Both the position numbers and the translations under genes were made by a program. Below are positions 1,322 to 61,691 of a stretch of DNA of 64,000 nucleotides, piece after piece (within the stretch, counting starts at the first letter, position 1; the number at the start of each line of letters is the position of its first letter). Source of the stretch: Candidatus Nitrosopumilus sp. (GTDB taxonomy: Archaea > Thermoproteota > Nitrososphaeria > Nitrososphaerales > Nitrosopumilaceae); assembly GCF_029882185.1 (NCBI RefSeq), contig NZ_JAOULD010000005.1, positions 1-64,000 of the forward strand. The letters run 5' to 3'. The notes beneath the pieces are model-generated. The model was not told the origin of the DNA. It ran no database searches and was given only the letters and a program-made list of their open reading frames with translations.

Positions 1322-2737
1322 ATGACTAATCTAATAGTTGCCAAATTTGGCGGTAGTGCTATAGGTAGAAATGGTGAGACAATTCCAAAAATTATTCAAA
1401 GAATTTTAGATTTAAGAGTAGATTCAAAAGTAATTGCAGTTTTTTCTGCACCTTTAACGGTTCATAATGAAAAAAAGCGTTCATTGACGGATGTCATTTT
1501 AGAACAGGGCAAAAATGCAGAAAATGGAATAAAACCATCTTTAGATATTGTAAGATCAACTTATCAAAAAATTCTAGAGATGGTTGATGAGAATAATAGA
1601 GAAAAATGTAAGAAAACGATTGACTTTCACCTAGAAAAGGCACAAAAAGCACTTGATGAGGCATTTAACAATAAAGAATTTGTCAATGAGGTACGTTCAA
1701 AGGCATTAGCATTTTCAGGAGAAATTTTGATGTCGCATGTAATGGCCTACATTCTAAGAAGCAATGGTATCAAAACTGAAGCAGTAGAATTTAAGGATTG
1801 GCCAATAATCACTGATCATAATATAGAATTTACAAATTTTCTCGCAGTAGAATCTAGAGAAAGAATGGACAAAGTAGCAGAATTGGTAGAAAACAATCAA
1901 GTAATAACCATCGGGGGATTTATTGGTAAAACAGTTGATGGTATAACTACGACATATGAGCGTGGGGGTTCAGATAGAACAGCAGCTGATTTAGGCATAT
2001 TGTTTCATAAAAAATATGAAACCAGCATAGATTTTGAAAAAGATAGTGCAGTAGTTTCTGCAGATCCAAAAGTAGTAGATTCTAAATTAAGAGAAGTAGT
2101 TCAATTATCATATAATGAAGCAAGATTGGCAGGAATGTTCGGAATGAAAATTTTAGATCCGATTGCAATTAAAGAGATTGTCGAGAATGGAGTAGACATG
2201 CCAATTATAATTACAAATATGAAAAACCCTGAAAAAATTACTATAATTAAAAGAAATCTTCAAGAGCAAAAAGGACATCCAATCAAAATAGTAACAGGGA
2301 AAAAAAATTGTGCAATATTTAGAATTGAAACAAACTCAATTCAGAGATTATTGACATCTTTAGAAAAAGACAAGCATTATAGTGAATTTGTCATTTTGTC
2401 ACCATTTACAAAAGACGGGATAGAATTCTCCAGAATATTATTCTTAGATGGGGAATATGTTAAGAGAAACGAAAAATATCTTTTAGCGTTTGATTCACTT
2501 GCCACGATTACATACAACAGAGGAGTCATTACATTGATTGGAGATGAGATGTGGAGGGTTCAGCAAGTAGCTTCTAGAACCAGTGCAAAGATTGGTGAAT
2601 CAGGATTAAACATTTTGAATATGGATGCACAGGAAGAAACATCACGAATAATCATTGTTGTAGAAGATTCACATGATAACATCACAAAAGCTATCAAAGC
2701 AGTCCACCAAGAAATTTCAAAGATTAATTTTATTTAA
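1322..2737 (+). CDS. lysC: aspartate kinase
   Basis: Phosphorylates aspartate, the first step to lysine, threonine and methionine. The kinase domain opens with KFGGSA (residues 8-13), the aspartokinase nucleotide signature. It has GGFIG near residue 198 and YERGGSDRTAADLG near 212-225, the conserved substrate/ATP region. From about residue 315 the chain looks like tandem ACT domains (for example VVQQ-like beta segments and SGLNILNMDAQE), which normally sense end-product amino acids. The length of 471 residues is typical for a monofunctional enzyme. The ATG start fits the short N terminus before the beta-1 strand. The structured segment at 2745-2835 follows the stop within 10 bases. Confidence 0.93.
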   Translation: MTNLIVAKFGGSAIGRNGETIPKIIQRILDLRVDSKVIAVFSAPLTVHNEKKRSLTDVILEQGKNAENGIKPSLDIVRSTYQKILEMVDENNREKCKKTIDFHLEKAQKALDEAFNNKEFVNEVRSKALAFSGEILMSHVMAYILRSNGIKTEAVEFKDWPIITDHNIEFTNFLAVESRERMDKVAELVENNQVITIGGFIGKTVDGITTTYERGGSDRTAADLGILFHKKYETSIDFEKDSAVVSADPKVVDSKLREVVQLSYNEARLAGMFGMKILDPIAIKEIVENGVDMPIIITNMKNPEKITIIKRNLQEQKGHPIKIVTGKKNCAIFRIETNSIQRLLTSLEKDKHYSEFVILSPFTKDGIEFSRILFLDGEYVKRNEKYLLAFDSLATITYNRGVITLIGDEMWRVQQVASRTSAKIGESGLNILNMDAQEETSRIIIVVEDSHDNITKAIKAVHQEISKINFI

Positions 2738-2744
2738 TGTAAAA

Positions 2745-2835
2745 GTGGCGTTACGGGCTTTCACCTGTAAACGCCATCATGGGTTTGTTCTTGGACCTTT
2801 ATCTAGAGTTAGTCCGGCGTTACCCAAAACACGCA
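2745..2835. ncRNA. candidate structured RNA, strand unresolved (H/ACA-like on plus strand)
   Basis: This short segment is much richer in G+C than its surroundings and folds on paper. Hairpin 1 pairs GGCGTTACGGG (2747-2757) with CCTGTAAACGCC (2764-2775) with one bulged base and a 6-base loop. Element 2 pairs TGGGT (2780-2784) with ACCCA (2822-2826) outside an internal loop, and GGAC (2793-2796) with GTCC (2812-2815) inside it, plus a possible CTTT/AGAG extension. An ACA triplet (2829-2831) follows the outer stem. That layout resembles an archaeal H/ACA guide, but no target was tested. On the minus strand hairpin 1 is followed by TTTT and could act as a terminator. Confidence 0.35.
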
Positions 2836-2885
2836 TACTATTGGTTACAATTCATAGTATTTAGAGATGATCTATATAGATCCAT

Positions 2886-3092
2886 TCACATACGCTCAGC
2901 TGCAAACCACAAAATGATTCCAATTCCTAGTATGGCATACCACTTGAAATTTTTCTTATTCATGAAAATATTGGATGAGCCTAGATCTTCATCTTTGTAT
3001 GCAGTCAGACGGATTTTCCTCATTTCAAATGCCTGACCAACCAGGCCTACAACAAGACACACAATACCAGCAAAACCCAGAATCCACTCCAT
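2886..3092 (-). CDS. small two-helix membrane protein, unknown function
   Basis: A 68-residue protein starting at the ATG at 3092 with MEWILGFAGIVCLVVGLVGQ. A longer frame on this strand extends upstream to 3245, but that part overlaps the aminotransferase gene and reads unlike protein. There is one hydrophobic helix at residues 3-20 and a second at about 52-66 (YAILGIGIILWFAA), with a charged middle (residues 22-48). Both ends are hydrophobic, so a hairpin membrane topology is likely. It is divergent from ilvE, sharing the 94-base gap between them. I do not recognise the family. The clean membrane pattern supports a real gene over the overlapping plus-strand frame. Confidence 0.6.
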   Translation of the reverse strand: MEWILGFAGIVCLVVGLVGQAFEMRKIRLTAYKDEDLGSSNIFMNKKNFKWYAILGIGIILWFAAERM

Positions 3093-3155
3093 ACTTGAAT
3101 TAATGATTAATGAGATATGAAGTTTGAGATTCTTTAACAACAAAAAAAGATAATT

Positions 3156-60736: not shown

Positions 60737-61534
60737 ATGTCTACTGAAATTCAAGAAATGCCTGAACAGGGAGAAATTGTTCTTGCTACAATCACCAAAG
60801 TAATGGATCATGGGGCATATGTTACATTAGATGAATATGACGACATTCAAGGATTTTTACACATTTCAGAAATTGCTCCAGGTTGGATTAGATCAGTTAA
60901 TAGATTTGTAAGAGATGGAGAGAAAAAAGTTCTCCTAGTAAAAAAAGTGAATGCTCAACGTGGAGATATAGATCTTTCATTAAAACAAGTATCAAAAGAT
61001 CAGAAAAAACAAAAACTAAAAGAAGTTAAAAAATTTGAAAAAGGCAAAACTCTATTACAAAATGTTCAGGAAAAGGCTAAATTAACAGATGATGAAGTTG
61101 AAAAGTTAGAAGATAGTATTTATTCAAAATTTGATTCAGTGTATGATGCTTTCATATCTATTGGAAGAAATGGCATAGGATCAGTAAAGGAATTAAAAAT
61201 TGCTAAAAAAACTGCAACAGTAATTGAAGATATTTGTTCAAAAATAAAACTTCCTTCAGTAGAAATTAGAGGAATTATGGAGATTACAAACAATAAATCA
61301 GACGGGGTTGAAATAATTAAAAAAACATTATTAGATACAATAAAAAAAGATTCCACTATAGATATTACATATTTAGGAGCACCAAAATATAGACTCTCTA
61401 TAATTTCAGAGGATTTCAAATCTGCTGAGAAATTACTAAAACCTATTGTTGAAGAAATTCAAACAAACATTGAAAAGAAAAAAGGATCATTCAAGTTCAT
61501 TAGAGAAGAATCAAAGAAAACAAGAGAGAACTAA
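60737..61534 (+). CDS. translation initiation factor aIF2 subunit alpha
   Basis: Part of the aIF2 trimer that brings Met-tRNAi to the ribosome. The 265 residues have an S1/OB domain (about 8-85): EIVLATITKVMDHGAYVTLD (13-32), GFLHISEIAPGWIRSVNRFV (starting about 39) and RGDIDLSLKQVSKDQ. A helical middle (about 90-170) and a C-terminal alpha/beta domain (about 175-265; IDITYLGAPKYRLSIISEDF) follow. This is the complete archaeal form. It is one base ahead of nop10, an arrangement common in archaea. Confidence 0.93.
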   Translation: MSTEIQEMPEQGEIVLATITKVMDHGAYVTLDEYDDIQGFLHISEIAPGWIRSVNRFVRDGEKKVLLVKKVNAQRGDIDLSLKQVSKDQKKQKLKEVKKFEKGKTLLQNVQEKAKLTDDEVEKLEDSIYSKFDSVYDAFISIGRNGIGSVKELKIAKKTATVIEDICSKIKLPSVEIRGIMEITNNKSDGVEIIKKTLLDTIKKDSTIDITYLGAPKYRLSIISEDFKSAEKLLKPIVEEIQTNIEKKKGSFKFIREESKKTREN

Positions 61535-61535
61535 C

Positions 61536-61691
61536 ATGAGATTTTTATTAAGAAAATGTTCAAAGTGTAATCATTATACACTAAAAGAAAAATGTCCAAA
61601 GTGTAGTGAAGAAACTATTTCTGTACATCCTGCAAAATTTTCACCAGACGATAAATACATGAGATACAGATTAGCTGAAAGATATTCCTAA
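61536..61691 (+). CDS. H/ACA ribonucleoprotein subunit Nop10
   Basis: Part of the RNA-guided pseudouridine synthase with Cbf5, Gar1 and L7Ae. The 51-residue protein reads MRFLLRKCSKCNHYTLKEKC, with zinc ligands C8, C11, C20 and C23, and ends with the linear segment SVHPAKFSPDDKYMRYRLAE that wraps along Cbf5. The real start is the ATG at 61536; a longer frame to 61446 lies inside the aIF2-alpha gene. Its last bases overlap the end of aglB. Confidence 0.95.
   Translation: MRFLLRKCSKCNHYTLKEKCPKCSEETISVHPAKFSPDDKYMRYRLAERYS

Follow-up and report, generated by a model that had tools for sequence, protein, structure and literature searches.

Sequence comparisons indicate that the segment next to lysC in the 64,000-nucleotide stretch of Candidatus Nitrosopumilus DNA analysed here (the window) is a gene for a small structured RNA, on the strand opposite to the one first proposed for it. 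Taken together, the evidence makes it probable that this gene gives a ~94-nt minus-strand non-coding RNA which has its own promoter, folds through helices P2, P3 and probably P1, and forms a homodimer; a scaffold role in trans is proposed more tentatively. The gene and its parts are as follows:

2741–2834, minus strand: structured RNA of ~94 nt, with nt 1 at 2834 and nt 94 at 2741, placed by covariance-model matches and alignments; the 3′ end is approximate
2858–2863, minus strand: TATA element TAAATA, −29 to −24 from nt 1
2869–2882, minus strand: upstream palindrome GATCTATATAGATC, conserved across loci
2817–2834, minus strand: proposed helix P1, nt 1–4 GCGU (2831–2834) with nt 15–18 ACGC (2817–2820), crossing P2
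2780–2826, minus strand: helix P2, nt 9–13 UGGGU (2822–2826) with nt 51–55 ACCCA (2780–2784), two pairs covarying
2793–2815, minus strand: hairpin P3, nt 20–23 GGAC (2812–2815) with nt 39–42 GUCC (2793–2796), four of four pairs covarying
2802–2807, minus strand: self-complementary P3 loop hexamer UCUAGA, the proposed kissing-dimer site
2746–2776, minus strand: hairpin P4 at the RNA 3′ end, covarying, with an apical GAAA at 2759–2762

The preliminary description had placed an unannotated structured RNA at 2745–2835, and both conservation and compensatory changes support one there. The true extent is larger, because the RNA runs from 2834 to 2741 and its promoter reaches up to about 2882. The same description saw an isolated GC-rich island: the G+C content is indeed 0.45 at 2750–2849, compared with about 0.3–0.38 nearby, but the island is not unique, because 3000–3099 is just as high. 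Each of the sequence features it reported (an 11-base-pair hairpin, a second element made of stem, internal loop and stem, and an ACA triplet) is present at the position it gave. Folding of the one sequence only moderately beats chance (z of −2.5 to −2.75 on the plus strand and −0.9 to −1.7 on the minus strand), and the case rests on conservation.

The surroundings of the gene are well kept. In the window, the stop codon of lysC lies about 10 nt past P4, and in most loci an aminotransferase gene and a small membrane gene occupy the flank away from lysC (lysC and the aminotransferase were named by Pfam). The small membrane gene (2886–3092, minus strand) encodes a 68-residue probable membrane protein which has no Pfam match and adjoins the RNA in most genera. 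A covariance search of relatives for the same stems beside lysC had been suggested as a check; it found the RNA in 190 of the 250 family genomes. Of 66 loci compared for gene order, 65 have lysC as the convergent neighbour.

Compensatory changes in the stems, the other comparative check suggested, were found far above shuffled and slid controls. In alignment A2 (75 rows, 70 of them distinct, fitted to the covariance model), 17 of 20 pairs changed on both sides, giving 164 both-side-change cells; shuffles gave 41.6, and no slid version gave more than 38. An independent MAFFT alignment, A1, gave 10 of 24 pairs and 49 cells, compared with 13.2 in shuffles. On this comparative evidence, helices P2–P4 are demonstrated by covariation. 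P3 is paired in 100% of cells and shows both-side changes at all four of its pairs, and P2 shows them at two pairs (GC/AU/CG and UA/AU). P2 also gains a fifth pair, and two divergent copies of the RNA, L168 and L169, have it in the form CGGU/ACCG. P4 is variable in sequence and is not kept in those two copies. The 5′ half likely also contains a pseudoknot formed by P1: the arms of P1 are nearly invariant, and the P1 × P2 pseudoknot is a proposal. The unpaired segments GCGUGUU, AAGAA and AAACC are near-invariant, and the 5′ half carries an A-rich strand, AAGAAYAAA. The invariant segments are the 5′ end, the P1 and P2 strands, the A-rich strand and the loop, and none of them resembles a variable seed. 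Inspection of the alignments spoke against a peptide encoded within the RNA, with single-base insertions and no conserved start.

The strand was assigned from the promoter. With loci aligned from the conserved end GCGTGTT, 64 of 66 (49 of the 50 from other genera) have a TAWATA element on the minus side whose first base falls between −32 and −27, and none of the 66 has one at the mirrored plus-side position. The conservation of this element is not mere relatedness, because the spacer between it and the start diverges (a mean of 0.25 bits, compared with 0.79 at the TATA element). The start expected from the TATA spacing is the first conserved base. The conserved promoter would thus direct transcription of the minus strand. 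Read on this strand, P3 has six G-U cells and no A-C cells. Folding energies misled on this question, favouring the plus strand in 49 of 58 sequences from the genus. P4 alone is a tie (35 vs 34), and minus-strand GNRA loops occur in P4 at only 29 of 66 loci. The G-U to A-C counts of P4 are mixed, with the covariance-model alignment leaning to the model strand. We weighed the promoter far above folding energies. The RNA start may nevertheless lie about 15 bases further upstream, because 37 of 66 loci have a second TATA-like element inside the upstream palindrome, with its first base at −45. This palindrome is found at most family loci; it begins three bases past the stop codon of the membrane-protein gene and upstream of the TATA element of the RNA. 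It does not appear to be a genome-wide site: an overlapping 12-mer, CTATATAGATCA, is single in its own genome.

In the 84 distinct 5′ domains, which is the count to use because the 260 loci they were drawn from overlap, the hexamer in the P3 loop is UCUAGA in 77, UCAUGA in five, UCGCGA in one and CCUAGG in one. The palindrome is therefore intact in 84 of 84, and a broken form was never seen. A 169-row tree based on lysC (made with FastTree from short fragments, with no support analysis) shows the hexamer switching type four times, and the CCUAGG paralogue is a fifth change. Since adjacent nucleotides are unable to pair with each other within one chain, the fact that they covary speaks for contacts between two RNA molecules, and a palindrome which switches but is never broken points to a self-pairing, kissing homodimer. 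The palindromic loop is thus the probable site at which two copies of the RNA pair. In PMC12286853, the homo-oligomers formed by the OLE and GOLLD RNAs are argued from the same kind of evidence, covariation of adjacent loop nucleotides. What marks a symmetric kissing-loop RNA, a loop palindrome that covaries as a palindrome, is seen here in four hexamers, and the loop palindromes of OLE and GOLLD likewise switch between different palindromes in relatives, as PMC12286853 describes. Those RNAs are large and bacterial, whereas the one described here is ~94 nt long, archaeal and without an Rfam match.

The RNA is widespread in its family. When 2738–2880 was used as a DNA query, 87 of the 95 genomes in the genus gave a match at E ≤ 1, and so did every one of the 56 that are of good quality. 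A few of the 87 matches are weak (G012 and G061, for example, at E 0.1–0.5), and the search with covariance model R1, which was built from the 58 distinct sequences of alignment A1, is for this reason the better count: besides the family total given above, it places the RNA in 120 of 131 good genomes and 17 of 22 genera. Nitrosopumilus, Nitrosarchaeum, Cenarchaeum and Nitrosopelagicus are among the named records with the RNA. A sample of 201 genomes from the order gave 51 matches, all in the same family, with no significant match elsewhere in the order. Across 398 genomes of the phylum, a 19-base pattern matched 58, again all in the family and none outside it. A viral origin was considered and rejected: phage records had no match, one IMG/VR pattern gave 12 stretches with a model score of at most 19.3 bits, and a second gave zero matches.

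Three genomes (G036, L168; G092, L169; G068, L339) carry shortened copies at unrelated sites. These comprise the 5′ domain but lack P4, and their TATA region differs from that of the main copy. Another divergent copy, L167 in G014, has the CCUAGG loop and a different 3′ part. There is no lysC near L167, L168 or L169. We take the 5′ domain to be the part of the RNA that does the work. A conserved short reading frame, MQNP[G/A]WFPLEYFELRG*, was noticed some 80–200 nt downstream of divergent copies (about 1310–1430 on the minus strand in L168, about 1640–1765 in L169 and downstream of 2000 in L339). It is followed by a conserved non-coding stretch. An Rfam search, made for L168 and L169, matched nothing there. 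G012 keeps a degenerate copy at its lysC locus (L340, around 2036–2120), with the P1 arms broken and the UCUAGA letters intact, and was the only one of 37 chosen genomes below E 0.1 in a relaxed search, R2. That search found no copy in G061, of the same genus, and none in G244, G135 and G249, which are at least 95% complete and of the same family. The degenerate and missing copies in G012 and G061 mean that the RNA can be lost, which suggests that it is not universally essential.

The segment had first been taken for a possible H/ACA-like RNA, that is, a plus-strand one-hairpin guide with an ACA box 13–14 nt from its pocket. PMC3608112 characterizes archaeal H/ACA sRNAs by an internal pocket, an ACA or ANA 14–16 nt from the target U, a kink-turn or kink-loop, bipartite complementarity to rRNA and association with Cbf5, Nop10, Gar1 and L7Ae. 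Compared with the single-hairpin type in that source, the plus strand does offer a hairpin with an internal loop and a conserved pocket sequence, followed at a suitable distance by ACA letters on the 3′ side of its lower stem. However, the promoter is conserved for the minus strand only (64 of 66 loci against none on the plus side), so the hairpin with its pocket is not on the strand predicted to be transcribed. The ACA letters, present on the plus strand 13–14 nt from the pocket, complement the minus-strand RNA 5′ end GCGUGUU. The pocket arms pair with rRNA no better than shuffles do: they reach eight contiguous pairs at best, a result that 186 of 200 shuffled guides matched or exceeded, and no bipartite rRNA site around a U stood out from these shuffles. 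The 16S and 23S genes used were those of G007, from the same genus, because neither gene was found in the assembly itself. By eye, the upper stem shows no kink-turn and no paired GA/GA motif, and its loop is the varying palindrome, which a guide leaves unexplained; nor was any Rfam H/ACA family matched. Nop10 is encoded in the window as reported (61440–61691, plus strand; Pfam PF04135, 7.7e-24), but the presence of the gene alone is uninformative about association of the protein with this RNA. We infer that the RNA is not an rRNA-modification guide, and regard the H/ACA reading as very improbable.

The RNA or its hairpins could be a cis element, antisense or terminator, acting on the 3′ end of lysC, as the nearly constant convergent arrangement and the short distance between P4 and the lysC stop codon would suggest. 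Yet the gap to the lysC match widens to about 150–200 nt in genus g15, the divergent copies L167–L169 have no lysC nearby, and the most conserved half of the RNA is the one far from lysC; this makes a cis element unlikely, though it is the strongest of the alternatives. At most loci the gene immediately upstream, in the same orientation, is the membrane gene, and the RNA might then be a 3′-UTR element of its mRNA, matured or stabilized by the pseudoknot, instead of a gene of its own. That is less probable again, given a TATA element at fixed distance between the two and RNA-bearing loci at which the membrane gene is undetected (L124, L142–L145 and L166, for example). The two palindromes, the loop hexamer and the upstream GATCTATATAGATC, might instead be protein-binding sites or a cruciform in DNA without RNA function. 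We give this scarcely any credence: P3 tolerates G-U pairs (six, against no A-C), three unpaired segments are near-invariant, the TATA element sits at the RNA start, and the upstream palindrome is unchanged where the loop palindrome changes (L049, L137, L170).

In the stand-alone RNA that we prefer, transcription would run on the minus strand from the TATA element at 2858–2863 to about 2741, between the small membrane-protein gene and the convergent lysC. The 5′ half would fold into P2, P3 and probably an H-type pseudoknot (P1 × P2) with the A-rich strand AAGAAYAAA, P4 would be a 3′ stability or termination hairpin, and the P3 loops of two molecules would pair with each other to give a symmetric homodimer. 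Acting in trans, this compact dimer would be a scaffold for a protein or a small ligand. The function is unproven, and we favour the trans scaffold role tentatively: since no segment looks like a variable seed, a scaffold, ligand- or protein-binding role is preferred over antisense regulation. A more specific version, which we put a little short of an even chance, is an obligate homodimer: a scaffold or sensor of two-fold symmetry, in which a kissing loop of six base pairs holds the pseudoknotted 5′ domains of two molecules together, with a dimer code shared by the P4-less copies. If so, the P4-less divergent copies with UCUAGA may form mixed dimers with the main copy, and the CCUAGG copy of G014 may be kept apart from it.

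The preQ1-II type of riboswitch is an H-type pseudoknot with a hairpin in its long loop. The proposed P1 × P2 topology, in which loop 3 contains P3 and one strand is rich in A, resembles it, whereas the RNA described here has no downstream gene to control, its own promoter, a palindromic kissing loop and no Rfam match. No Rfam 15 family matched the window at the gathering score, and at E ≤ 5 the sole match within 2600–3000 was a chance one to a CRISPR repeat (2714–2749, E 4.1). We found no description of such an RNA in the open literature; the marine small RNAs of Shi et al. 2009 might include the Nitrosopumilaceae RNA. Within Rfam 15 and the open literature, it is probably previously undescribed. 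Tan1 of marine group II Euryarchaeota, as PMC5069720 presents it, is likewise an abundant non-coding RNA of a marine archaeon, but it belongs to another phylum, and the likeness is one of description.

For marine ammonia-oxidizing archaea, which are abundant and drive nitrification, we found no structured small RNA beyond the standard set described in the open literature. An RNA gene that is present in 17 genera, has a conserved promoter of its own and shows evidence of self-pairing offers a testable regulator or scaffold in these organisms, and a self-pairing RNA of ~94 nt would mean that large size is not a requirement for homo-oligomeric RNAs.
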